From Actinophytocola sp. (GTDB lineage Bacteria; Actinomycetota; Actinomycetes; Mycobacteriales; Pseudonocardiaceae): DNA of 64,000 bases. The position numbers and the translations under genes are program-made. The DNA is taken from positions 62,001 to 126,000 of the forward strand of contig WHTY01000002.1 in the NCBI GenBank assembly GCA_009377475.1. The letters are read 5' to 3'. The notes under the pieces are model-generated. The model made no database searches. It was not told where the DNA came from and saw only the letters and a program-made list of their open reading frames with translations. Shown here one piece after another: positions 5,705 through 19,556 of this stretch (the stretch's first letter is position 1; every line of letters begins with the position of its first letter).

Positions 5705-5723
5705 TAAGGTGAGGCTAGCCTAA
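5705..5723. promoter_or_regulatory. Iron box (DmdR/IdeR site) before the siderophore-interacting protein
   Basis: TAAGGTGAGGCTAGCCTAA matches 16 of 19 bases of the consensus TTAGGTTAGGCTAACCTAA. It lies 31 bp upstream of the next start and ends within an extended palindrome to 5726. Iron-loaded DmdR/IdeR binding here would repress transcription in iron-replete cells. Confidence 0.85.
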
Positions 5724-5754: not shown

Positions 5755-6780
5755 ATGAATCTAGCCACGAACCGGGTGCCCACGACGCCAACAGTGCCGG
5801 CGGCGCCCACCATGCCCACGGCGCTCACGGTGTCAGCGGCGCCCACGACCTCCCGGCTGCGCTCGATAGGCGACGGGACGGTCGCGTCGGTGGCGAGCAC
5901 GCCGTACCGGCTGTTCGAAGTCGCGGTGCGCCGCACCCGTCGGCTGAGCCCGAGCTTCCTGCGTGTCACCGTCACCGGCCCTGACCTGGACCGATTCGCC
6001 GACAACGGCTTCGACCAGCGGTTCAAGCTCGTGCTGCCGCTGCCCGGCGTCGGGTTCGACCACCTCGGCGGGGGAGCGGACTGGTACCAACGCTGGCGAC
6101 AGCTGCCCGACCACCTGCGCAACCCCGTCCGCACCTACACCGTGCGCGCGGTGCGACCCGAGCGCCGCGAGGTGGACGTCGATGTCGTGCTGCACGGCGA
6201 CAACGGCCCGGTGTCCCAGTGGGCCAGCAGGGCCGTGCCGGACGACGTCGTGGCGTTCGTCGGTCCGGACGCCTGGTACCCCGGCGACCACGGCGGCGTC
6301 GGGTTCCGGCCGCACCCCGGCGCGGAGTTCCTGCTGGCCGGGGACGAGACCGCCGTGCCCGCCACGACGAGCATCCTGGAGTGCCTGCCCGCCGACGCCC
6401 GGGGCGAGGTGCTCCTCGAGGTGCCGCACGCCGCCGACGTCCTCCCGGTCGAACACCCGCCTGGCGTGCGGGTCACCTGGCTGCCACGGAACGGTGGGGC
6501 GCACGGCGAACGGCTGATCCCCGCCGTGCGCGAGACCGCGGTGCGGCTGGTCGCGGCGACGCCACGCCGCCCGCGGCAGCGGCTCCGCGACATCGACGTC
6601 GACACCGACCTGCTCTGGGAAGTGCCGGCCACCGCGACGGATGGCCTCTACGCCTGGCTGGCGGGCGAGGCCGGGGTGATCAAGACGCTTCGGCGGTACC
6701 TGGTCACCGACCTGGGCGTCGACCGGCGTTCGGTGGCGTTCATGGGCTACTGGCGACTCGGCCGCGGCCATCCGCTCTGA
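5755..6780 (+). CDS. Siderophore-interacting protein (FAD-dependent ferric-siderophore reductase, ViuB/SIP type)
   Basis: 341 aa from the ATG at 5755 with GAGGAGGG upstream. After a variable N-terminus the SIP fold starts near residue 50, with RLSPSFLRVTVTGPDL, the flavin-binding RTYTVRAV, and the NAD(P)H-domain LLAGDETAVPA segment. The C-terminal GYWRLGRGHPL is typical. SIPs reduce Fe(III)-siderophore in the cytosol to free the iron. Residues ~8-35 are a low-complexity Pro/Thr/Ala stretch not usual for the family; a later GTG at 5890 would remove it, but has a poorer ribosome site. Preceded by an iron box and followed by the importer. Confidence 0.9.
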   Translation: MNLATNRVPTTPTVPAAPTMPTALTVSAAPTTSRLRSIGDGTVASVASTPYRLFEVAVRRTRRLSPSFLRVTVTGPDLDRFADNGFDQRFKLVLPLPGVGFDHLGGGADWYQRWRQLPDHLRNPVRTYTVRAVRPERREVDVDVVLHGDNGPVSQWASRAVPDDVVAFVGPDAWYPGDHGGVGFRPHPGAEFLLAGDETAVPATTSILECLPADARGEVLLEVPHAADVLPVEHPPGVRVTWLPRNGGAHGERLIPAVRETAVRLVAATPRRPRQRLRDIDVDTDLLWEVPATATDGLYAWLAGEAGVIKTLRRYLVTDLGVDRRSVAFMGYWRLGRGHPL

Positions 6781-6834: not shown

Positions 6835-6853
6835 TTAGGTTTGGTTTACCTAA
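6835..6853. promoter_or_regulatory. Iron box before the siderophore importer operon
   Basis: TTAGGTTTGGTTTACCTAA matches 16 of 19 consensus positions. A second half-site-like palindrome AAGGTCACCTT follows at about 6860-6870, which could let two regulator dimers bind. The start of the ATPase gene is 38 bp downstream. Confidence 0.9.
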
Positions 6854-6891: not shown

Positions 6892-7695
6892 GTGACTGTT
6901 CGTGATGTGCGGGTGGCGACCGACAACCTCGCCGTCGGGCACGGCAAGCGCCGCGTCCTCACCAACGTCGACCTCACGCTGGCGGCAGGGGAGGTCACCC
7001 TGCTGGTCGGCCCGAACGGCTGCGGCAAGTCCACGTTGCTGCGCACCATCGGCGGGCTGCTGCCGCCGCTCGACGGCGCCGTGCACGTCGACGGCGTCCC
7101 CCTCAGGTCGCTGTCGCGCCGCGCGCTGTCGCAGCGGCTGGCGTTCCTGCCGCAGACGTCGCAGATCCCGGCGGGTGTCACCGTCCGCGAGCTGGTGCGC
7201 CACGGCCGCTACGCCCATCGCGGCGCGTTCGCCCGGCACACCGCGGAGGACCGCGAGTCGATCGAGTGGGCGCTGTCGGTCACCGACGCCGAACCCCTCG
7301 CCGACAAGTGCCTCGACGAACTCTCCGGCGGCGAGCGGCAACGCGCCTGGCTGGCCACCGTGCTCGCGCAGCGCGCCACCATCCTGCTGCTCGACGAGCC
7401 GACCACCTACCTCGACCTGCGTCACCAGTTCGACGTGCTCGACGTGGTGCGCACCCTGGCGCGGGACTACGACATCGCGTGCGGCGTCGTGCTGCACGAC
7501 CTCATGCACGCCGCCGCGTACGGCGACACCGTCATGGTCATCAGCGACGGCACGGTGCTGCGCTCCGGGCCGCCGGAGGACGTCCTGACGTCCGACGCGA
7601 TCGAGCGCGCGTTCGGCCTCAGCGTCAACGTCGTGCGCGACCACGAGACCGGCCACCTGGCGTGCTTCCCGCAGCGACCCCCGGTCGCGTCCTGA
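6892..7695 (+). CDS. Iron-siderophore ABC transporter ATP-binding protein, FecE/FhuC-like
   Basis: 267 aa from the GTG at 6892, with GGAGG six bases upstream. Walker A GPNGCGKST (residues 40-48), signature LSGGERQR (144-151), Walker B ILLLDEP (164-170), and a conserved His in VVLHDLMHA. Length and order are those of FhuC-type ATPases. It energises the fused permease encoded two genes downstream. First gene of the importer operon, directly under an iron box. Confidence 0.93.
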   Translation: MTVRDVRVATDNLAVGHGKRRVLTNVDLTLAAGEVTLLVGPNGCGKSTLLRTIGGLLPPLDGAVHVDGVPLRSLSRRALSQRLAFLPQTSQIPAGVTVRELVRHGRYAHRGAFARHTAEDRESIEWALSVTDAEPLADKCLDELSGGERQRAWLATVLAQRATILLLDEPTTYLDLRHQFDVLDVVRTLARDYDIACGVVLHDLMHAAAYGDTVMVISDGTVLRSGPPEDVLTSDAIERAFGLSVNVVRDHETGHLACFPQRPPVAS

Positions 7696-7743: not shown

Positions 7744-8736
7744 ATGAACAGGCTCGTACGTGCGGTGACGGCGGGCAGTGCCGCCGCGGCGCTCGCGCTG
7801 GCAGCGGGCTGTGGCGGCGGCACGGTCGCCGACCCCGGCTCGGAGGGCACCGCGGAGAACAGCGGCGGCTCGGGCTCGATCAGCGTCGCGACCGCCAAGG
7901 GCGACGTCGAGCTGGACAAGCCCGCGACCAAGGTCGTCTCGCTGGAGTGGTCCTACACCGAGGAACTGCTCGCGCTGGGCGTCACCCCGGCGGGCGCCGC
8001 TGACACCGGGACGTACGGCGACTGGGTCACCGCGCCCGACGCGCAGCTGCCGGACGACGTCACCGACGTCGGCTCGCGGCAGGAGCCGAGCATCGAGAAG
8101 ATCAAGGCGCTCGACCCCGACCTGATCGTCTCCGACGTCGACCGGCTCACCGCGAACTACGACCAGCTCAAGGAGATCGCGCCGGTCGCGGCCTTCGACC
8201 CGACGAAGCAGCCGCAGCTGGAGACGATGAAGACGAACTTCACCGAGCTGGCGGAAGCGGTCGGCAAGGAGGACAAGGCCGAGGAGGTGCTCGGCGAGCT
8301 GGACGCCAAGGTCGAGGACGTCAAGAGCACGATCGAGGAGTCGGGCGAGTCGGACAGCCCGTTCGCGCTCGCGCAGGGCTACACCGCGGAGGGTGCGCCC
8401 GGCATCCGGATGTTCACCAGCGACACGATGGCCGCGTCGCTGCTGGAAGAGGCCGGGCTGAAGAACGGCTGGAGCGGCAAGCCGGACAGCTGGGGCATGA
8501 CCACGGTCGGCGTCGAGGGGCTGACGAAGGTCGACTCCGACGCCCGGTTCCTGTACGTCGCGCTGAAGTCCGACGACCCGTTCACCAGCGTGCTGAAGGG
8601 CAACGCCGCTTGGCAGAACCTGCCGTTCGTCAAGCAGGACAAGGTCGCGGCGCTCGACCCGGGCACCTGGCTGTTCGGTGGGCCGCTGTCGGCGATGCAG
8701 TTGCTCGACGAGACCGCCAAGGCCTACAGCGCCTGA
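7744..8736 (+). CDS. Iron-siderophore binding lipoprotein, FecB/FhuD-like
   Basis: 330 aa from the ATG at 7744, with AAGGAGG upstream. It has a lipoprotein signal with LAAGC at residues ~21-25, then a periplasmic-binding fold of the helical-backbone type (VVSLEWSYTEELLALGVTPAG, KIKALDPDLIVSD). Such proteins capture ferric siderophore outside the membrane. The small Ser/Gly-rich linker after the Cys is typical of membrane-anchored binding proteins. It lies between the ATPase and the permease of the same importer. Confidence 0.92.
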   Translation: MNRLVRAVTAGSAAAALALAAGCGGGTVADPGSEGTAENSGGSGSISVATAKGDVELDKPATKVVSLEWSYTEELLALGVTPAGAADTGTYGDWVTAPDAQLPDDVTDVGSRQEPSIEKIKALDPDLIVSDVDRLTANYDQLKEIAPVAAFDPTKQPQLETMKTNFTELAEAVGKEDKAEEVLGELDAKVEDVKSTIEESGESDSPFALAQGYTAEGAPGIRMFTSDTMAASLLEEAGLKNGWSGKPDSWGMTTVGVEGLTKVDSDARFLYVALKSDDPFTSVLKGNAAWQNLPFVKQDKVAALDPGTWLFGGPLSAMQLLDETAKAYSA

Positions 8737-8749
8737 CAGTTCAGACGCT

Positions 8750-10789
8750 GTGCTGAAGGCCAAGCGCGTCGGGCTGCGCCGCCCACCCGTCATCGTGGTG
8801 GGCGGCGCAGTCGCGTGCGCGCTGCTCGCCGTCACCGTCGTCCATCTCGGACTCGGGGCGTCCGGCGTCGGCATCGCCGACATCGCGCGCCTGCTCGCGG
8901 GTCACAACGACCCGCACACCGAGGCGATGCTGTGGGGTGCGCGGCTGCCGCGCACCCTCGCCGGGTTGGTCGCCGGGGCCGCGCTGGGTGTGGCGGGCAC
9001 GCTGATCCAGGGCGTCACCCGCAACCCGCTCGCCGCGCCCGACACGCTCGGCATCAACGCTGGCGCGTACCTCGCCGTCGTCGCCGTCGCGTTCACCGGC
9101 ATCGACGTCGGGGTGCTCGGCGGGGGCGGCGTGGCGTTCCTCGGCGGGCTCGCCGCGATGGTCGTGGTGTACCTGCTGACGGTGGGCGGCGTGCTCACGC
9201 CGGGCCGCGTGCTGCTGGCGGGCGCGACGGTGACGCTCGCCGGAATGGCGGTCGCGGACTTCCTGCAGATCCTCGATGAGAACTCGACGCGGGGACTGTA
9301 CTTCTGGGGCCAGGGCTCGCTGTTGCAGACCGGGCTGGACCGGCCGCTGCTGTTCGGCGCGGTCGTGCTGGGCGCGGTGCTGCTGACGCCGCTGCTCGCC
9401 CGGCCCATCGACCTGATCTCGCTCGGCGACGAGACGGCGGAGTCACTGGGCGTGCGGGTCGGCCGGGTGCGGCCCGCCGCACTGCTGCTGGCCGTGGCGC
9501 TGTCGGCGTCGGCGGTGAGCGTCGCCGGTCCGGTGGCGTTCGTCGGGCTGGTCGCGGCGGTCGCGGTGCGCACGCTCGGCATTCCCCGGCACGCCGCGCG
9601 GCTGCCGATCGCCGGACTGCTCGGCGCGGCGCTGGTGCTGGCCGCCGACGCGGGCGCGCAACTGGTGCTGCCGCCCTCGGCGGGCTACGGCGAACTGCCG
9701 GTCGGTGTGATCACCGCCCTGATTGGTGGACCGGTGTTCGTGCTGCTCGCGCGACGCATCATCACCGGCGACGCCGACGTCGGCGCTGCCGTGACGACGA
9801 TCCGGCCGATCGCTCGCCGCAGCTACCTACTCGCGATCGGCGTCGGCCTCGCGGTGCTGGCCACGGTGATCATGGTGGGTCTACGCGTCGGCGACGTCGA
9901 CGTGAGCTGGGCGCAACTGGGCGCGGTGGTCAGCGGCGCGGGCGATCTGATCGCGCAAGAGATGGTGGCCTACCGGCTGCCGCGCATCCTGGTGGCGGCG
10001 CTCGCGGGGACGTGCCTTGCCGTGGCGGGCGTCGCGGTGCAGGCCGTTGTCCGCAACCCCCTCGCCGAACCCAACCTGATCGGCGTGACCCAGGGCGCTG
10101 CGGTCGGCGCCGTGCTGATGATCGCGGTGATACCGAGCGCGCCCGCCGCCGCGTTGCCGCTGGCCGCCGCGCTCGGCGGGGTGGTCGTCATCGCGCTGGT
10201 CATGCTGCTCGCGAAGGCGGGCGGCGGGCTGGACCCGACGCGCGTGGTGCTGATCGGACTCGGCTGTTCCTACACCGGCAGCGCGCTCGTGCACCTCATG
10301 GTGGTGGGCGCGCAGATGGACCTCTCCGCGGCGCTGACGTGGCTGTCCGGCAGCACGTACGCCCGCGACTTCTCGGTGCTGGGCTGGCTGATCGCGCCGA
10401 TCCTGGTGGGCATCGTGCTGGTGCTGACCGCGCGGCCGGTCGATCTGCTCGCCTACGGCAACGACCTGCCGCGCGCGTTCGGGCTCGCGCTCGGGCGCAC
10501 GCGGGTGCTCGTGCTCGCCGGGGCCGCCGTGCTCGCCTCGGGAACGGCGGCCGTGGTGGGCACCGTTGGGTTCGTCGGCCTGGTCGCGCCGCACCTCGCG
10601 CGCCGGATCGTCGGCAGCGCCACCGCACGCCTTGTGCCGATGGCCGCGCTGCTCGGCGCGATCCTGGTGGTCACCGCAGACGCCGTCGGGCGGGCGTTGC
10701 TCGCGCCGCTGGAGATCCCGGTGGGTGTCGTGACGGCGCTGGTCGGCGCGCCCTACCTGATCTGGCTGCTGCGCCGCAGGTCGGCCTGA
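8750..10789 (+). CDS. Fused iron-siderophore permease (FhuB-like, two FecCD domains)
   Basis: 679 aa from the GTG at 8750, 13 bases after the binding-protein stop. Two homologous FecCD permease halves are fused, each about 320 residues. The duplicated landmark is GTLIQGVTRNPLAAPDTLG in the first half and VAVQAVVRNPLAEPNLIG in the second. E. coli FhuB has the same architecture at a similar length (659 aa), so one polypeptide forms the whole membrane channel. No strong ribosome site precedes the start, suggesting coupling to the upstream gene. Its 3' end overlaps the convergent exporter gene by 37 bp. Confidence 0.92.
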   Translation: MLKAKRVGLRRPPVIVVGGAVACALLAVTVVHLGLGASGVGIADIARLLAGHNDPHTEAMLWGARLPRTLAGLVAGAALGVAGTLIQGVTRNPLAAPDTLGINAGAYLAVVAVAFTGIDVGVLGGGGVAFLGGLAAMVVVYLLTVGGVLTPGRVLLAGATVTLAGMAVADFLQILDENSTRGLYFWGQGSLLQTGLDRPLLFGAVVLGAVLLTPLLARPIDLISLGDETAESLGVRVGRVRPAALLLAVALSASAVSVAGPVAFVGLVAAVAVRTLGIPRHAARLPIAGLLGAALVLAADAGAQLVLPPSAGYGELPVGVITALIGGPVFVLLARRIITGDADVGAAVTTIRPIARRSYLLAIGVGLAVLATVIMVGLRVGDVDVSWAQLGAVVSGAGDLIAQEMVAYRLPRILVAALAGTCLAVAGVAVQAVVRNPLAEPNLIGVTQGAAVGAVLMIAVIPSAPAAALPLAAALGGVVVIALVMLLAKAGGGLDPTRVVLIGLGCSYTGSALVHLMVVGAQMDLSAALTWLSGSTYARDFSVLGWLIAPILVGIVLVLTARPVDLLAYGNDLPRAFGLALGRTRVLVLAGAAVLASGTAAVVGTVGFVGLVAPHLARRIVGSATARLVPMAALLGAILVVTADAVGRALLAPLEIPVGVVTALVGAPYLIWLLRRRSA

Positions 10790-12216
10790 GTGGAGGGTGG
10801 GGCACCCGGCGGTCCGGCCGCGTCGGCGGCTCGGACGGCGGTGGGCCGTGTGCTGGATGGCTCGCCCGGCACGTCGCCGGGCAACAGCCGTCTGGCGAGC
10901 GCCACGCTGACCACGCACACCGTCGCCGCGGCGAGGCACACGCCGGTGAACGCCACACCGGTCCCGCCGAGCGCGGCGAACAGCGCGCCGAACACCGCGA
11001 CGCCGGTCGCGGTACCCAACGGCGAGCACGCGTTCGTCAGCCCGGATGCCACGCCGGTGCGCGCGGGAGGTACGACGCTCACCGTGACGGTCAGCAGCGG
11101 CGGGAACACCAGCGCGGTCCCCGCGCCCAGCAGCGTCATGCCGCCACACGCCCACACCACACTGCTCGTGCCCGCCGCGACCGCGAGCACGACCAACCCG
11201 GCGGCCTGCAGCCCGAATCCGCTCGCGACAGTCCGAGCGGGACCGAGCCGCGCCTGCACGGACGCCGTCAGCAGGCCCGCGAGCGCCAGGCTCCCGGTCA
11301 GCGGAAGCAGGAGCAGCCCCGCGCGCCACGGCGACGCGGCAGCGGTGTCCTGCAACCACAACGTCAGGAACGCCAGCGTGCCAAGGCTGGCCATCCGGCC
11401 GGTGAACGTCAGCGCCGCAGCTGCGGTGAACGCCGCACCGTCCACCGCGCCGACGTCGAGCAGCGCGCGCGGACGACGTTGGCCGCGCACGAACACCGGC
11501 AGCAGCACACCGAACGCCACCCCGGCGCCCACGGTGACCGTCGACGTCCACCCGAGCGAGCTGCCGGTCGCCAACGCGGTGTGCAGCGCGAGCAGTGTCG
11601 CGACCGCGAGCGCCGCGCCGGAGACGTCGACGGGCGTCGTGCGGGGGTCCGGTCGTGAGCGGGGGAGGACCAGCGCGGCGGCCACCAGCACGAACCCGCC
11701 GACCGGGACGTTGAGCAGAAAGATCCACTCCCAGCCGAGCGCGGCCACGACACCGCCGCCGAGCACCGGCCCGAGCGCGCCCGCCAGTGAGGACAGCGCG
11801 GCGAACGAGGCGATGGCCGACCGCCTGGCCGCGCCCTCGTGGGTGGCGGCCAGCAGCGCGAGCGCGGGTGCGAACGCGAGCGCGCCACCCGCGCCCTGCG
11901 CCGCCCGCGCGGCGATGAGCGTGCCGATCGTCGGCGCCGCCGCGCAGGCCAGCGACGCGAGCGTGAACACCGCCATGCCGGTCGTGAACACCCGGCGATG
12001 TCCGGCCGCGTCCGACCAGGTGCCCGCCGTCAGCAGCAGCGCACCGAACGCGAGGGAGTACGCCGACACCGTCCACGGCAGCACCTCGGCGCTCGCGGAC
12101 AGCTCCGTGCCGATTGCGGGCAGGGCGACGTTCACCACCGTGACGTCGAGGGTCAGCATCACGCCGGACACGCTGACCAGCGCGAATGCCCAGCTGCGGG
12201 TGCGCTCGGCCGTCAT
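10753..12216 (-). CDS. MFS exporter, DHA2/EmrB-QacA type, probable siderophore exporter
   Basis: 487 aa from the ATG at 12216. About fourteen membrane segments. The opening MLTLDVTVVNVALPAIGTEL carries the conserved LDxTVVNVALP motif of the 14-helix drug:H+ antiporter group, followed by AGTWSDAAGHRRVF after helix 2. The gene is divergent from the biosynthetic operon and has its own iron box 40 bp upstream. This makes export of the newly made siderophore the likely role; the sequence cannot show the cargo. Confidence 0.85.
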   Translation of the reverse strand: MTAERTRSWAFALVSVSGVMLTLDVTVVNVALPAIGTELSASAEVLPWTVSAYSLAFGALLLTAGTWSDAAGHRRVFTTGMAVFTLASLACAAAPTIGTLIAARAAQGAGGALAFAPALALLAATHEGAARRSAIASFAALSSLAGALGPVLGGGVVAALGWEWIFLLNVPVGGFVLVAAALVLPRSRPDPRTTPVDVSGAALAVATLLALHTALATGSSLGWTSTVTVGAGVAFGVLLPVFVRGQRRPRALLDVGAVDGAAFTAAAALTFTGRMASLGTLAFLTLWLQDTAAASPWRAGLLLLPLTGSLALAGLLTASVQARLGPARTVASGFGLQAAGLVVLAVAAGTSSVVWACGGMTLLGAGTALVFPPLLTVTVSVVPPARTGVASGLTNACSPLGTATGVAVFGALFAALGGTGVAFTGVCLAAATVCVVSVALARRLLPGDVPGEPSSTRPTAVRAADAAGPPGAPPSTQADLRRSSQIR

Positions 12217-12255: not shown

Positions 12256-12274
12256 TTCGGTGAGCCTAACCTAA
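12256..12274. promoter_or_regulatory. Iron box for the exporter gene
   Basis: TTCGGTGAGCCTAACCTAA matches 16 of 19 consensus bases and lies 40 bp upstream of the exporter start on the minus strand. A further half-site-like AACCTAAC occurs near 12315 between this box and the one facing the biosynthetic operon. Confidence 0.82.
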
Positions 12275-12336: not shown

Positions 12337-12355
12337 TTAGGCAAGCCTTGCCTAA
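12337..12355. promoter_or_regulatory. Iron box for the siderophore biosynthesis operon
   Basis: TTAGGCAAGCCTTGCCTAA is a perfect 9+9 palindrome around one base and matches 14 of 19 consensus positions, keeping the outer TTAGG/CCTAA. It lies 78 bp upstream of the ATG at 12433. Its last base is the A of an in-frame ATG (12355), so a start there would lie in the operator and is unlikely. Confidence 0.82.
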
Positions 12356-12432: not shown

Positions 12433-14277
12433 ATGCCTGATCGCACCGCTCGACCGCAGAACGACACCGATCCCGCCCCACCGCATCCGGTCCCGGACCT
12501 CCCGGACGTCGGCCCGAGGGCGTGGCGCGAAGCCAACCGGCGGCTGCTCGCCAAGGCGCTGGGGGAGTGGACGTTCGAGGCGATGCTCAAGGCGATCGAG
12601 ACCGGGGAGGGCGAATACCGCGTCGACCTGGACAACGGCGTCTGCTACCGGTTCCGGGGACGCCCCGGCGCGTTCGGGTGGCTGCTGGTCGAGCCCGAGT
12701 CGGTTACCCGCGTCGCGGCAGGGATGCTCGGCGACGAGATCGGCCAGCCCGCGTGGGACGCGCTCCAGTTCTTTGTGGACGTCGCGGGCACGCTCGGCAC
12801 CGATCCGTCCACTGTGGTCACCTACCTCACCGAGCTGGCAGCCACGCTCGCCGTGGACGCCGCCCGGATCGCACGCGGCGGCGAGACCGCACGCGAGCTG
12901 CGCGAGCTGGACCACGCCGAGCTGGACTGCCGGATGACCGGCCACAACCTGCTGGTGGCGAACAAGGGCAGGATCGGCTTCTCCGCCACCGACGTCCGTC
13001 GTTACGCGCCGGAGTCGCGGCAGCCGGTGCGGTTGCAGTGGCTCGCCGTCCACCGTGGACTCGCGGAGTTCCGGGGTACCTCGGAACTGTCCGAACAGGA
13101 GATCCTGGCCAGGGAGCTGCCCGAGGACGTGCGCGCCGACTGGATGCGCTCCCTGCGGGACCAGGGCCTCGACCCGGACGCCTTCGTGTGGATGCCAGCG
13201 CACCCGTGGCAGTGGGACAACGTCATCCAGGTGCTGCACGCCGCCGACATCGCGCAGTGCCGGATCGTCCCGTTGGGACTGAGCCCGGACGAGTACCTGC
13301 CCGGCCAGTCGATCCGCACCATGGCCAACATCACCACGCCGGGCCGGTTCGACGTCAAGCTGCCCCTGAAGATCCTGAACACGCTGGTGTGGCGGGGGAT
13401 TCCGCCGCACTGCACCATGGGCGCGCCGGTCGTCACCCAGTGGCTCAAGGGGATGCTCGCCGAGGACCCGGTGCTCACCGAGCAGACCCGCACGGTGTTC
13501 CTCGGCGAGGTCGCGTCGGTCACCGTCCGCCACCCGTATCTGTCGCAGGTGGACGAGACGCCGTACCAGCACCTGGAGACGTTGGGCTGCATCTGGCGCG
13601 AATCCGCCGTGACGTTCGGCGAAGAGAACGAGCGCATCCGCACGTTCGCCTCGCTGCTGCACGTCGACGACGAGGGCACCGCGTTCGTCGCTGAGCTGGC
13701 GAAGGCGTCCGGTCTGCCAGCAGAGGACTGGCTGCGGCAGCTGTTCGAGACACTGCTCGTGCCGATCATGCAGGTGCTGTACCGCTACGGCGTCACGTTC
13801 AACCCGCACGGCCAGAACACGCTGCTCGGCTTCGACGAGCGCGAGGTGCCGCGCAGGCTCTACCTCAAGGACTTCGTGGACGACGTCTGCGTGTCCTACA
13901 CCGACGTCCCGGAACGTGGTCCCGAGCCGGACGGGCACGACCACGTCCTGCCGCGCAAGCACCCCTCGGTGATCCGCCAGCACGTCATGGACCAGGTGTT
14001 CGTCGGCCACTTCCGCTACCTCGCGCCGCTGTGCGCCGACCAGCTCGGCGTGTCCGAGCAGCGGTTCTGGCAGCTGGTGCGGCAGACCATTCTGGACTTC
14101 CACGCGAGCCATCCCGAGCTGGCGGAGCGGTTCGGCGAGTACGACCTCCTCTCGCCCGAGATCCCGAGGTACGCGCTCAACCGCGACCGCATCGTGGTCA
14201 CCCGCTATGGCGACCGAGCGCTGCGCCACGCGCTGTTCCCGAACGGCACGCTGCCGAACCCGCTGGCGAACCATTGA
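12433..14277 (+). CDS. NIS siderophore synthetase, IucC/DesD/AlcC-like (putative type C)
   Basis: 614 aa from the ATG at 12433, preceded by GGGAG. IucA/IucC family signatures: GHNLLVANKGRIGF with the following YAPE (residues ~170-194), PAHPWQWDNV, and NPHGQNTLLGF followed by YLKDFVDDV near the C-terminus (FhuF-like part). The LVANxGRIGF...YAPE form is, from memory, that of the DesD/AlcC subgroup, which condenses an amine with a carboxylate already linked to another group. This gene opens the five-gene operon downstream of an iron box. With the IucA-like partner two genes on, it would complete a citrate-bis-amide; alternatively it oligomerises hydroxamates as DesD does. Confidence 0.9.
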   Translation: MPDRTARPQNDTDPAPPHPVPDLPDVGPRAWREANRRLLAKALGEWTFEAMLKAIETGEGEYRVDLDNGVCYRFRGRPGAFGWLLVEPESVTRVAAGMLGDEIGQPAWDALQFFVDVAGTLGTDPSTVVTYLTELAATLAVDAARIARGGETARELRELDHAELDCRMTGHNLLVANKGRIGFSATDVRRYAPESRQPVRLQWLAVHRGLAEFRGTSELSEQEILARELPEDVRADWMRSLRDQGLDPDAFVWMPAHPWQWDNVIQVLHAADIAQCRIVPLGLSPDEYLPGQSIRTMANITTPGRFDVKLPLKILNTLVWRGIPPHCTMGAPVVTQWLKGMLAEDPVLTEQTRTVFLGEVASVTVRHPYLSQVDETPYQHLETLGCIWRESAVTFGEENERIRTFASLLHVDDEGTAFVAELAKASGLPAEDWLRQLFETLLVPIMQVLYRYGVTFNPHGQNTLLGFDEREVPRRLYLKDFVDDVCVSYTDVPERGPEPDGHDHVLPRKHPSVIRQHVMDQVFVGHFRYLAPLCADQLGVSEQRFWQLVRQTILDFHASHPELAERFGEYDLLSPEIPRYALNRDRIVVTRYGDRALRHALFPNGTLPNPLANH

Positions 14278-14315
14278 TCGCGTCGGCCCCCTGCGCCGAC
14301 ATGGAGGAGTCTTTC

Positions 14316-15872
14316 GTGACCCAGATCGCTCCGGCCGCACAGTGCGCGCCGCGATTCATCGACGACACACCCAGCGCCGTGCCGAGCTCGGTGCTGGCCG
14401 GTTCCCGCGAGGGCATGGCCGAGGTGGTGACGACCCTGGCGGGGGCGGTCGCGTCGGCCCGCTCGGTGCACCGGGACGGCCCGATGCCGCCCGGCCTGCC
14501 GGGCGAGGTGCTGGCGGCGGCGACCGACACGCTCGGCCCGCCCGCCGTGCCCGCCGACGGCATCGGCGCCGACGCCGCGTTGCGTCGTCTCGCCACGATG
14601 CTGACCGAGTACGGCCTCGACCTGTCCGACCCGCGCGCCGCCGCGCACCTGCAACCGCCGCCGCTGTCCGTCGCGGTCGCCGCAGACGCGCTGGCCAGCG
14701 CGGGCAACGCCTCGCTGGACACCTACGACTCCGGGCCGTCGGCGATCGCCGTGGAACGCTGGCTGGTGCGCAGTCTCGCTGGCCTCGCGCGGCTCGGTGA
14801 GCAGGCGGACGGCGTGCTCACGCCTGGCGGGTCGATGTCCAACCTGCTCGGGCTGCTGCTCGCCCGCGACGCCGCCGCGCTGAATCGGGGCCGCGACGTC
14901 CGCCGCGACGGTGTGGCCGCGCTGCCGCGCCCGGTGGTGTTCTGCTCGGAGCTGGCGCACTTCTCGGTGCACCGCGCCTGCGCCGCGCTCGGCCTCGGCG
15001 AGAACGCGGTGCGGCCGATCGCCGTTGATCAGCGGCACCGGATGCGGCCCGATGCGGTGGCGGACGCGCTGGCCGCGCTGGCCGCGCTGGCCGCGCTGGA
15101 CGACGACCAGACGCCGGTGGCGATCATCGCGACGGCGGGCACCACCGATTTCGGCTCGGTCGACCCGCTGCCGCAGCTCGCGGAGATCGCCGCCGAGCAC
15201 GGGGTGTGGCTGCACGTGGACGCCGCCTACGGCTTCGGGTCGCTGTTCTCGCAACGTCTCGGCGACCGGCTCGCCGGGATCGAGCTGGCCGACTCGATCA
15301 CGCTCGACCTGCACAAGCTCGGCTGGCAACCGGCCGCCGCGAGCGCGCTGCTCGTCGGCGACGCCAGCGCGTTCCGCTCGCTCGACCGCACGGTGGAGTA
15401 CCTGAACCCGGCCGACGACAGCGACGCGGGCTACGACGGCCTGCTCGGCCGCAGCCTGCAGACCACCCGCAGGCCGGACGCGGTGAAGGTCGCCGCGACC
15501 CTGCTGGCCCACGGCCGCGAGGGTCTCGGCCGGATGGTCGACGTCTGCCATGACCTCGCCGTGCACGCCGAACGCCGCATCGCCGTCGAGAGCGACCTGG
15601 AACTCGTCGCGCCCGCCGAGCTGACGACCGTGGTGTTCCGCTTCCGAGGCGCCCGCCGTGACGAGCTGGACCGCATCAACGGCGACCTGCGGCGCAAGCT
15701 GCTCGAGTCCGGCCAGGCGCTGATCGGGCGCACCACAGTGCGCGGACGGGTGTGCGTGAAGTTCACCCTGCTCAACCCCACCGCCACCACCGAAGACATC
15801 GACGAACTCATCGACAGGGTGCTGCTCGCGGGCAGGGCCAGCGCGGCACACACCGAGGAGGGCGCGGCATGA
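14316..15872 (+). CDS. PLP-dependent group II decarboxylase (DesA/RhbB-like; lysine or 2,4-diaminobutyrate)
   Basis: 518 aa from the GTG at 14316, with GGAGGAG six bases upstream; an ATG at 14301 overlaps that site. The PLP-binding Lys334 lies in LDLHKLGWQPAAAS, and VDAAYGF and TAGTTDFGSVDPL are family landmarks. These enzymes make the diamine backbone of hydroxamate siderophores: cadaverine from lysine (DesA) or diaminopropane from diaminobutyrate (RhbB). No diaminobutyrate aminotransferase (RhbA) is encoded nearby, which favours lysine as substrate. Overlaps the next start by four bases. Confidence 0.88.
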   Translation: MTQIAPAAQCAPRFIDDTPSAVPSSVLAGSREGMAEVVTTLAGAVASARSVHRDGPMPPGLPGEVLAAATDTLGPPAVPADGIGADAALRRLATMLTEYGLDLSDPRAAAHLQPPPLSVAVAADALASAGNASLDTYDSGPSAIAVERWLVRSLAGLARLGEQADGVLTPGGSMSNLLGLLLARDAAALNRGRDVRRDGVAALPRPVVFCSELAHFSVHRACAALGLGENAVRPIAVDQRHRMRPDAVADALAALAALAALDDDQTPVAIIATAGTTDFGSVDPLPQLAEIAAEHGVWLHVDAAYGFGSLFSQRLGDRLAGIELADSITLDLHKLGWQPAAASALLVGDASAFRSLDRTVEYLNPADDSDAGYDGLLGRSLQTTRRPDAVKVAATLLAHGREGLGRMVDVCHDLAVHAERRIAVESDLELVAPAELTTVVFRFRGARRDELDRINGDLRRKLLESGQALIGRTTVRGRVCVKFTLLNPTATTEDIDELIDRVLLAGRASAAHTEEGAA

Positions 15873-17683
15873 CGACCATCGAAGACCTACCCGCGAGCGC
15901 GGCCGCCGCGCCGTGGCTGGACGACCCACTGCACACCCGCGACCCGCGTGGCGCGGCCGAGCACGCGCACCTGGAGGCGTTGCTGCGCTGCTGGCTCATC
16001 GAGACCGGCGCGTCGGTGACGCCGGGTCCGCTTCGGGTCGAGTTCCCCGCCACCGGGCTCGCGCTGGTCACCGAGCTGCGGCACTGCTCGCCGACCGGGT
16101 GGCACCGTTTCGGCCCGGTCGCCATCGAGGGGCCGTCCGGACACGTGGGTGACGACGCCGACCCGGTGGTGGCGATCTCGCTGCTGGCGGCCGAGGCTTC
16201 GGCGCGCGGCGGTGCCCGCGAGGGCGGGGTGCCGTCCGGGGAGGTCGCGGACCTGGTGGAGCGGACGGCGGAGTCGGTGCGCCGCGTGACGACGTACATC
16301 GGACATCGTCGCGAGCATCCCGAGCCGCCCGACGACGGTTTCCTCGACGCCGAACAGGCGCTCGTGCTCGGGCACCTGAAGCACCCCGCACCGAAAAGCC
16401 GGGATGGACTGTCCGAACGGGAGTCCGAAGTGTACTCGCCGGAACAGCGCGGATCGTTCCGGCTGCACTGGTTCGCCGCCGACGAGTCCGTCATCTCGCA
16501 CGACGCCATCGCGGACGCGCCGTCGCTGGACAGGCGCGACGCCGTCACGCTCATGGCAGACCTCGCCGAACGCAAGCTCGCCGACGGCAGGGTGCTCGTG
16601 CCAGCGCACCCGTGGCAGGCCCGCGACCTGGTGCACCGGCCACGCATCGCCGCGCTCATCGAGCAGGGGCGGCTGGAACCGCTCGGCGAGCTCGGCCCGC
16701 ACTGGTGGCCGACGTCGAGCGTGCGCACCCTGTACCGCCCCGACGCGGACGTCATGCTCAAACTGTCGCTCGGCCTGCGGCTGACCAACTCGAAACGCGA
16801 GTCCACGCGCACCGAACTGCGTCGGGGCCTGGAGATCAACCGGCTGCTCGACGCCGGGTACGCGGCGAGCACGTTCGAGGCCCACCGGGGCTTCGCCATC
16901 ACCCGCGACCCGGCGTGGCTCGCCGTGGACGAGCCAGGTCGGGACGGCGGACCCGACGTCACCGGGCTGGACGTCGCGGTGCGCGAGGTCCCCGAGGGCG
17001 TGGCTGACCTGCGGTGCCTCGCGGGGCTGGTCGCACCTCGGCCGGGGGAGGGCCGCAGCAGGCTGGGGGAGCTGGTGGCGGTGCTCGGTTCCGCGTCCGG
17101 CGGCTGCTCGGAGGCCGCGGAGCGCTGGGTCGCGGACTACACCGACCGCGTGCTGGTCCCGATGCTGCACCTCTACGCCGCCACCGGGATCGGGCTGGAG
17201 GCCCACCAGCAGAACACGTTGGTGCGCCTCGACGCGGACGGCGGCGTCGCGCGGGCGACGTTCCGCGACAACCAGGGCTACTACCTCGCCGCGTCGCACG
17301 AGCCGAAGGTGTTGGACGTCCTCGGCGTGGACGCCTCGACGCTGGCGGTGGTGGACGACGCGATCGTGGACGAGCGGCTGTCCTACTACCTGCTGCGCAA
17401 CCAGGCGCTCGCCGTCGTCGGCTGCCTCGCCGTGGACGGGCTGGCGGACGAGACGACGCTGCTCGGCGTCATGGCTGAGCGGCTGCGCGTCGCCCTCGGA
17501 CAGCTTGAGAACGCCGGGCAGGACGGCGACCGGCTGGCGCGACGCTGGCTGACGGCGGAGTCGTTGCCCTGCAAGGGAAACCTGCTCACCCGGCTGCACG
17601 GCATCGACGAGGTGCTCGCGCCGCTCGACGCGCAGTCGGTGTACCTGGACGCCCCCAACCCGTTGCGGGAGGTGACCCGATGA
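15869..17683 (+). CDS. NIS siderophore synthetase, IucA/AcsD-like (putative type A, citrate-activating)
   Basis: 604 aa from the ATG at 15869 overlapping the upstream stop. Motifs: GHLKHPAPKSRDGLS (residues ~168-182), PAHPWQARD (~245-253), PTSSVRTLYR (281-290) and MLKLSLGLRLTNSKR (296-310), then GLEAHQQNTLV. The HPxxKxRxG and PTSSxRT motifs form the ATP and carboxylate sites in AcsD-type enzymes, which adenylate one arm of citrate. It differs clearly in its N-terminal motif from the other synthetase of the operon, so the pair are not simple duplicates. The C-terminal ~45 residues carry no recognisable motif. Confidence 0.9.
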   Translation: MTTIEDLPASAAAAPWLDDPLHTRDPRGAAEHAHLEALLRCWLIETGASVTPGPLRVEFPATGLALVTELRHCSPTGWHRFGPVAIEGPSGHVGDDADPVVAISLLAAEASARGGAREGGVPSGEVADLVERTAESVRRVTTYIGHRREHPEPPDDGFLDAEQALVLGHLKHPAPKSRDGLSERESEVYSPEQRGSFRLHWFAADESVISHDAIADAPSLDRRDAVTLMADLAERKLADGRVLVPAHPWQARDLVHRPRIAALIEQGRLEPLGELGPHWWPTSSVRTLYRPDADVMLKLSLGLRLTNSKRESTRTELRRGLEINRLLDAGYAASTFEAHRGFAITRDPAWLAVDEPGRDGGPDVTGLDVAVREVPEGVADLRCLAGLVAPRPGEGRSRLGELVAVLGSASGGCSEAAERWVADYTDRVLVPMLHLYAATGIGLEAHQQNTLVRLDADGGVARATFRDNQGYYLAASHEPKVLDVLGVDASTLAVVDDAIVDERLSYYLLRNQALAVVGCLAVDGLADETTLLGVMAERLRVALGQLENAGQDGDRLARRWLTAESLPCKGNLLTRLHGIDEVLAPLDAQSVYLDAPNPLREVTR

Positions 17684-18249
17684 TCGCCCATCCGACAACC
17701 GACGCCGCCGCCGCGCCGCCGCTGCCACGGCTGTGCGCGCCGTGGTCGGTGCGCGCGGCATCGTCCGATGTGGACCTGGAGCTGATCCACCGCTGGATGA
17801 TCCAGCCGCACGTCGAGAAGTTCTGGCACCAGGCGTGGCCGCCGGAACGCTGGCGGTCCGAACTGGACACCCAGCTCGCTGGCACGCACTCGCTGCCGTG
17901 CGTCGTCGCGCACGACGGCGTTGACCTCGCCTACGTCGAGATCTACCGCGTCCAACGGGATCGGCTGGCCGACTTCGTGCCGCACGAGCCGCACGACCTC
18001 GGCGTGCACATCGCCATCGGGGACCGCGACCGCACCGGGCGCGGGCTCGGCAGGGCGTTGCTGTCCGCGCTGGCGGAAGGACTGCTCACCGCCGACTCGG
18101 CGTGCCAGCGCGTCGTCGCCGAGCCGGACAAGGGGAACGCGCCGTCGATCCGGGCCTTCCAGATCGCGGGCTTCGCGGTCGGACCCGACGTCGCGCTGCC
18201 GGACAAGACGGCCGTGCTCATGACCTACGAGCGGAGGAGACCGCGATGA
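17680..18249 (+). CDS. GNAT N-acyltransferase, IucB/DesC/MbtK-like
   Basis: 189 aa from the ATG at 17680 (four-base overlap). The IucB-type pattern is present: HRWMIQPHVEKFWHQAWP near the N-terminus and the CoA-binding stretch DRTGRGLGRALLSAL with VAEPDKGN before the last helix. Family members acylate the N6-hydroxylated diamine or lysine to give the hydroxamate. Position between the synthetase and the N-hydroxylase matches the iucB or rhbD place. The acyl group (acetyl, succinyl, longer) cannot be read from the sequence. Confidence 0.88.
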   Translation: MIAHPTTDAAAAPPLPRLCAPWSVRAASSDVDLELIHRWMIQPHVEKFWHQAWPPERWRSELDTQLAGTHSLPCVVAHDGVDLAYVEIYRVQRDRLADFVPHEPHDLGVHIAIGDRDRTGRGLGRALLSALAEGLLTADSACQRVVAEPDKGNAPSIRAFQIAGFAVGPDVALPDKTAVLMTYERRRPR

Positions 18250-19556
18250 CATCGGAGCGAGCCGACTACGACGTCGTCGCCATCGGCTGCGGGCCCTTCA
18301 ACCTGGGGCTGGCCGCGCTCGCCGAGGGCGTCGACGACGTCGACCTGGTGGTGTTCGAGGAGCGTCCCGAGTTCCGCTGGCACCCGGGATTGATGTTCGA
18401 CGAGGCGTTGTTGCAGGTCAGCTTCCTGGCCGACCTGGTGACGCTGGTGGCGCCGACGCACCCGCTGTCGTTCCTGGCGTACCTGCGCGACGTCGACCGG
18501 ATGTATCCGTTCTACGTGCGGGAGCGGTTCCACCCGACCCGCAGGGAGTACGAGGACTACCTGCGCTGGGCGGCGTCCACAGTGGACACGGTCCGGTTCG
18601 GCCACCGGGTCAGCGCGGTGACGTGGGACCCGTCGGACGAGCGGTTCGTGGCCGACGTCGAACGCGCCGACGGCAGCACGCTCACGGTGTCCGCGCGCCA
18701 CCTCGTGCTGGGCGTGGGCACCGAACCGGCCGTGGCGGAGTCGCTGGCGGACCTGCCCGCCGACCGACTGCTGCACACCGGCGACTACCTGCACCGCCTT
18801 GACGACGTCGCGGGCGCGGGGCGGGTGACGGTCGTCGGGTCGGGGCAGTCCGGCGCGGAGGTCGCCCTGGACCTGCTGCGCCGCAACTCTGAGGGCGGAC
18901 CGGCGGTGAACTGGCTGACCAGGACGGAGTCGTTCGCGCCGCTGGACTACTCGAAGCTGGTGCTGGAGATGACCACCCCGGCCTACGTCGAGTACTTCCA
19001 CGGGCTGCCGGACGCCACCCGCGACGAGCTGGTGGCGCGGCAGTGGCGGCACTACAAGGGCGTGTCGGAGGAGACGCTGGAGGAGATCCACGACGTCCTC
19101 TACCGGCGCGAGCTGCGCGAGGGGCTGGCGCCGGTCGAGCTGCGGTGCGGCGTGGCGGTGGAGACGTCTGCTGTGGATCCCGAGACTGGTGACGTCGTGC
19201 TGACCTGCCGTCAGCGGGACACCGGCACGCGGTTCGAGCACCGCACCGACGTCGTCGTCGCGGCAACCGGCTACCGGCAGCGGACGCCGGGGTGCCTCGC
19301 GCCGATGTCGTCGTTGGTGCGCCGCGACGCGCACGGCCGGTACCGGGTGCGGCTGGACCACTCGATCGAACTGGACCCGGCGGTGAGCGGCAGGGTGTTC
19401 GTCGCCAACGCCGACCTGCACAGCCACGGCGTCGCGGCCCCGGACCTCGGCATCGGCGCGTACCGCAACGCCACGATCCTCAACGCCGTCACCGGCCGCG
19501 AGGTGTACCGGCTGCCGAAGAACACGGCGTTCACCAGCTTCGCCGCGCCGGGGTAA
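18246..19556 (+). CDS. Lysine/diamine N-monooxygenase (IucD/DesB/RhbE-like)
   Basis: 436 aa from the ATG at 18246, overlapping the acyltransferase stop. FAD site GCGPFNLGL (residues ~14-22), RWHPGLMFDEALLQVSFLADLV substrate-side signature, NADPH site VVGSGQSGAE (~196-205), and the late VVAATGYRQRTP motif. It hydroxylates the terminal amine using NADPH, FAD and O2, the first committed step to the hydroxamate. Final gene of the operon; downstream is a 0.5 kb non-coding stretch with repeat elements. Confidence 0.93.
   Translation: MTSERADYDVVAIGCGPFNLGLAALAEGVDDVDLVVFEERPEFRWHPGLMFDEALLQVSFLADLVTLVAPTHPLSFLAYLRDVDRMYPFYVRERFHPTRREYEDYLRWAASTVDTVRFGHRVSAVTWDPSDERFVADVERADGSTLTVSARHLVLGVGTEPAVAESLADLPADRLLHTGDYLHRLDDVAGAGRVTVVGSGQSGAEVALDLLRRNSEGGPAVNWLTRTESFAPLDYSKLVLEMTTPAYVEYFHGLPDATRDELVARQWRHYKGVSEETLEEIHDVLYRRELREGLAPVELRCGVAVETSAVDPETGDVVLTCRQRDTGTRFEHRTDVVVAATGYRQRTPGCLAPMSSLVRRDAHGRYRVRLDHSIELDPAVSGRVFVANADLHSHGVAAPDLGIGAYRNATILNAVTGREVYRLPKNTAFTSFAAPG

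Follow-up and report, generated by a model that had tools for sequence, protein, structure and literature searches.

A candidate arthrobactin-type siderophore operon with a distinct decarboxylase subfamily in a salt-loving actinomycete

Locus organization

We analyzed a 64,000-nucleotide stretch of contig WHTY01000002.1 (assembly GCA_009377475.1, positions 62,001 to 126,000; hereafter the window) from the 5.27 Mb draft genome of a salt-loving actinomycete deposited as Actinophytocola sp., whose nearest named relative in a genome search was Haloechinothrix halophila, of the same genus. As the initial annotation had proposed, five co-directional genes lie at 12433-19556 and encode two nonribosomal peptide synthetase-independent siderophore (NIS) synthetases, a pyridoxal phosphate (PLP) decarboxylase, a GNAT acyltransferase and a flavin N-hydroxylase (Table 1). 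The last four genes, from the decarboxylase onward, are joined by overlaps of 4 bp, and the decarboxylase starts with a GTG codon at 14316 with a GGAGG box ahead of it. All five proteins matched Pfam families well past the cut-off, in agreement with these assignments: both synthetases carry IucA_IucC and FhuF domains (E-values 1.5e-72 and 1.6e-58), the decarboxylase is a Pyridoxal_deC protein (1.4e-49), and the hydroxamate-forming pair is made up of a Lys_Orn_oxgnase N-hydroxylase (1.1e-107) and an Acetyltransf_8 acyltransferase (3.2e-43).

Table 1. Features of the siderophore locus, with biosynthetic genes first (window positions)
Feature	Position	Strand	Evidence
NIS synthetase, IucC/RhbF partner type (type C branch, outside DesD/AlcC)	12433..14277	+	Pfam, solved relatives, tree
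PLP decarboxylase, RhbB/DesA superfamily, own subclade, motif NASLDTYDSGP	14316..15872	+	Pfam, NCBIfam, trees, alignment
NIS synthetase type A (IucA/RhbC)	15869..17683	+	Pfam, solved relatives, tree
GNAT N-hydroxyamine acyltransferase, IucB/RhbD/MbtK-like	17680..18249	+	Pfam, solved relatives
Flavin-dependent diamine N-hydroxylase, RhbE/DesB-like	18246..19556	+	Pfam, solved relatives, tree
Siderophore-interacting protein (ferric-siderophore reductase)	5755..6780	+	SIP 3.9e-36, FAD_binding_9 8.7e-35
FhuC/FecE-like ATP-binding cassette (ABC) ATPase	6892..7695	+	Profile matches
FhuD-like siderophore-binding protein	7744..8736	+	Peripla_BP_2 2.1e-35; FhuD model 3.3e-45, below cut-off
Fused double permease, FhuB-like, with uncertain start codon	8696..10789	+	FecCD, 2 stretches, 2.8e-150
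Major facilitator superfamily (MFS) exporter, EmrB/DHA2-like, divergent from operon	10753..12216	-	MFS_1 2.4e-42
Predicted DtxR/IdeR-type iron box before the siderophore-interacting protein gene	5705..5723	.	3 mismatches to TTAGGTTAGSCTAACCTAA, 0 expected
Predicted iron box before the fhuC-like gene	6835..6853	.	Palindrome search
Predicted iron box in the exporter/operon divergent promoter	12256..12274	.	2 mismatches
Predicted perfectly palindromic iron box TTAGGCAAGCCTTGCCTAA, ~78 bp ahead of the first synthetase	12337..12355	.	0 mismatches, 0 expected

Synthetase phylogeny and pathway class

To assign the synthetases we built a maximum likelihood tree with the solved references AlcC, DesD, NcdF, IucA and AcsD and with the synthetases of linked reference clusters. 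The second synthetase clustered with IucA, AcsD and RhbC; the first joined RhbF and further synthetases that accompany type A enzymes. A separate clade with 100% support comprised DesD, AlcC and NcdF, and neither window synthetase fell inside it, so that the joint grouping with DesD named in the initial annotation as its refutation is not seen. The initial annotation had expected two distinct synthetase types, and these are found as one type A enzyme and one of the IucC/RhbF type; its DesD/AlcC label for the first synthetase is ruled out by the position of that gene in the partner group. Part of the type A synthetase (residues 37-113; window 15977-16207) also weakly matched (E-value 2.6e-8) the N-terminal part of 9nnq, which has two domains and is named lysine N-acyltransferase MbtK; among solved proteins, its C-terminal part is closest to the GNAT protein.

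In known pathways, an rhb-type architecture leads to citrate bearing two N-acyl-N-hydroxydiamines. Because one synthetase is of type A and the other of the IucC/RhbF partner type, the operon most likely encodes, judged from its sequence, a citrate bis-hydroxamate NIS pathway distinct from that of desferrioxamine, as the initial annotation had suggested. A desferrioxamine-type cluster that has gained an extra synthetase could account for the homology of the decarboxylase, hydroxylase and acyltransferase to DesA, DesB and DesC, but we consider it highly improbable given that both synthetases lie outside the DesD group and that the Streptomyces carriers L008 and L041 have a further, separate locus of decarboxylase, hydroxylase and synthetase genes, and that synthetase falls within the DesD group.

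Distribution of related loci

We scanned species genomes for related loci, requiring a type A synthetase with at least 60% identity, and added one plasmid match, which yielded 43 loci, 31 of them with all five genes in six arrangements. Carriers belong to the Pseudonocardiaceae, Streptomyces (7 of the 199 sampled species), Microtetraspora and the Myxococcaceae, together with one plasmid of Rhodococcus pyridinivorans; Haloechinothrix halophila YIM 93223 (L006) is among them. On this plasmid (pSID of strain 5Ap; L097 9064-16107), the partner synthetase gene faces the other four. One record titled “Comamonas sp. KCTC 72670” (L024) is 9 Mb in size and its decarboxylase is nested in the Myxococcaceae; it is probably a mislabelled myxobacterium. 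Three Streptomyces genomes have the operon without decarboxylase and hydroxylase, and carry an unlinked pair of these genes from a sister clade elsewhere; in this split form the synthetases and GNAT gene are found at L032, L037 and L038 and the decarboxylase-hydroxylase pair at L108, L136 and L137.

A diaminobutyrate aminotransferase gene (dat) was absent from the operon, as the initial annotation had noted, and from the flanks of all 43 loci (0/43, up to 10 kb). A literature search found no paper describing a cluster of the window type. The locus is a known kind of cluster with new traits: it lacks an aminotransferase, its decarboxylase forms a separate subfamily and its distribution is wide.

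Decarboxylase specificity and choice of diamine

Our preferred reading is that the decarboxylase acts on lysine and that the product of this iron-repressed citrate bis-hydroxamate pathway is of the arthrobactin type, to which we give a probability of about 0.6. Arthrobactin consists of citrate and two N-acetyl-N-hydroxycadaverines, and schizokinen is its diaminopropane counterpart (PMC3534580). Cadaverine had been favoured initially from the missing aminotransferase. In that form the argument is weak: a missing linked aminotransferase is no proof of cadaverine because the window genome makes diaminobutyrate by EctB (644.9 bits), encoded in an ectABCD operon, so that the idea of a genome with no diaminobutyrate source is false; the decarboxylase is, moreover, nearer to dat-linked actinobacterial enzymes than to DesA/DfoJ. 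A stronger form of the argument stands, built on the decarboxylase motif and on carriers outside the actinomycetes. EctB/Dat is present in nearly all actinomycete carriers, but of the seven Myxococcaceae genomes that hold the full cluster five (L019, L021, L024, L025 and L031) lack it, their best class III aminotransferase reaching at most 235 bits with the EctB model versus 528-645 for EctB in the other tested carriers. In these five the cluster must run without diaminobutyrate from known enzymes.

We compared decarboxylase residues by alignment. Q113, T136, Y137 and S139 are found in 38/38 members of the window family and F307 in 37/38. The dat-linked decarboxylases have S136, Q139 and G307 (9/9), so that none of the nine matches the window family at position 136, 139 or 307, and only one does at position 113. 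T136, common to the window family and the DesA/DfoJ enzymes, counts in favour of lysine; the latter carry T136, Q139 and C307 (5/5). The resulting motif, HLQPP / DTYDSGP / AYGFG, is unlike both sets. Judging by the fold, residues 131-141 probably form part of the wall of the substrate pocket, contributed by the adjacent subunit.

Several observations weigh against lysine and arthrobactin. The window family has Q113, Y137, S139 and F307 where the lysine enzymes have N, W, Q and C. In the decarboxylase trees it falls within an actinobacterial clade whose basal members include dat-linked enzymes. The nearest relatives outside the family include such enzymes, which presumably act on diaminobutyrate, a compound that the window genome produces for ectoine. 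A common clade with the DesA/DfoJ lysine decarboxylases was rejected (approximately unbiased (AU) test, p 1.5e-39), and the hydroxylases likewise separate from their des counterparts in a tree. We also infer the link between arthrobactin and the cluster, and no products are recorded for carriers.

Part of this evidence fits a pathway fed in trans by L-2,4-diaminobutyrate from EctB, in which the decarboxylase would release 1,3-diaminopropane and the product would be schizokinen or an acyl homologue. The ectoine operon, the near-universal EctB/Dat of actinomycete carriers and the basal dat-linked enzymes all point this way, as does the best NCBIfam model, the diaminobutyrate decarboxylase RhbB (NF052646), yet it scores 322.9 bits where the cut-off is 900. 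We hold this route to be unlikely, though the strongest of the alternatives, in view of the Myxococcaceae that have the whole cluster and no EctB/Dat and of the departures from the dat-linked enzymes at positions 113, 136, 139 and 307. DesA, a lysine decarboxylase within the diaminobutyrate decarboxylase family, shows that this superfamily can change substrate (PMC9854754).

A motif that fits neither reference set could also indicate a third specificity, such as ornithine (giving putrescine) or another basic amino acid, and a citrate bis-hydroxamate whose diamine spacer has not been reported before; the diamine N-hydroxylase DesB takes both cadaverine and putrescine (PMC8009421). The T136 shared with the lysine enzymes speaks against this. 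To our knowledge no citrate-putrescine bis-hydroxamate has been described, which we also count against it, and we regard it as improbable.

Transport genes and predicted iron control

We searched the 64 kb for DtxR/IdeR/DmdR palindromes and obtained four sites, all in promoters of siderophore genes, whereas shuffled sequences gave none. An iron-dependent repressor would be expected to bind at these four predicted iron boxes. Because the boxes lie before the reductase gene, before the fhuC-like gene and within the divergent promoter of exporter and operon, the genes for export, uptake, reduction and biosynthesis look like a single iron-repressed unit spanning ~5.7 to 19.6 kb.

Proposed pathway and product

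In the lysine reading, the decarboxylase would convert its amino acid, most likely lysine, to a diamine (cadaverine), one nitrogen of which would be hydroxylated by the flavoenzyme and then acylated by the GNAT protein, probably with acetyl. The type A synthetase would adenylate citrate and attach the first N-acyl-N-hydroxydiamine, and the IucC/RhbF-type synthetase the second, to give arthrobactin or an acyl homologue. The MFS protein would export the product, the FhuD/FhuB/FhuC-like importer would bring the iron complex back and the siderophore-interacting protein would reduce it. The step order, diamine, acyl group and product are those that we infer from gene content and from the pathways of relatives.

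Arthrobactin has long been known chemically, with Arthrobacter pascens as its source. It was detected in S. katsurahamanus at m/z 477.256, at the level of a tandem mass spectrometry (MS/MS) library match, in a 2019 study that called the responsible genes unknown (PMC6856088). S. jumonjinensis NRRL 5741, a strain of the same study other than the arthrobactin producer, carries the cluster (L014). Such library matches need cautious reading because one was also reported for Kribbella speibonae (PMC7411998).

The window cluster may represent these missing arthrobactin genes, and its decarboxylase a lysine decarboxylase of independent origin, which evolved apart from DesA/DfoJ within an actinobacterial diaminobutyrate-decarboxylase-like clade and spread to the Myxococcaceae and a Rhodococcus plasmid; we put forward this fuller claim tentatively, at somewhat less than even odds. 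Since the decarboxylase lies outside the DesA/DfoJ clade, lysine use, if real, arose by an independent change. The locus is a concrete, testable candidate for the arthrobactin genes and offers a clean case, possibly a second independent switch to lysine, of decarboxylase specificity setting the spacer length of citrate siderophores. It would also make arthrobactin, schizokinen and desferrioxamine clusters easier to distinguish in genome mining. The cluster occurs in roughly 3-4% of the Streptomyces species sampled, and culturable type strains are among its carriers.

Comparison with known systems

The window genome holds a second NIS cluster with three synthetases (contig C173:149180-157046; L099 6181-14047), comprising an SbnF-like protein (528.9 bits), an SbnC-like protein (332 bits), a third NIS synthetase, a DAP-decarboxylase-fold enzyme and an ornithine-cyclodeaminase-like protein, which by gene content is like a staphyloferrin B gene set in an actinomycete.

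Among described systems, the csb cluster of Streptomyces (PMC9600172) has a related type A synthetase, partner synthetase and GNAT protein (~44-48% identity), but it includes dat and has no linked decarboxylase or hydroxylase. A csb-type cluster (dat, type A, GNAT and IucC, with no hydroxylase) was found in genome G006 (L047 8254-14553), which also carries an unlinked decarboxylase-hydroxylase pair with the diaminobutyrate-type motif DSWDQ (L142 3521-6702); this pair could supply the “missing” hydroxylase of the cryptic csb-type siderophore.

The desABCD cluster shares iron-box control and a homologous decarboxylase, hydroxylase and acyltransferase with the window, but it has a single DesD synthetase and uses no citrate, and the window synthetases, decarboxylase and hydroxylase fall in other clades. 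Aerobactin biosynthesis (iucABCD) relies on a type A and IucC synthetase pair acting on citrate, as predicted here, but takes lysine without decarboxylation, whereas the window encodes a decarboxylase. The arthrobactin system shares the predicted product class, and by the 2019 statement had no gene cluster tied to it (PMC6856088). The rhbABCDEF cluster of Sinorhizobium meliloti (rhizobactin 1021, with a schizokinen core) has five enzyme types in common with the window, including an IucC/RhbF-type partner, and the same internal order of decarboxylase, type A synthetase, GNAT and hydroxylase. It differs in its aminotransferase rhbA and in the partner synthetase, which is last in rhb and first in the window, as well as in the decarboxylase motif, and sequence identity to RhbB, C, E and F is low, at ~36-41% for a close relative of the window set. 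Clusters of Picosynechococcus and Halobacterium likewise combine the decarboxylase-type A-GNAT-hydroxylase block and a partner synthetase, as in the window, with dat in addition.

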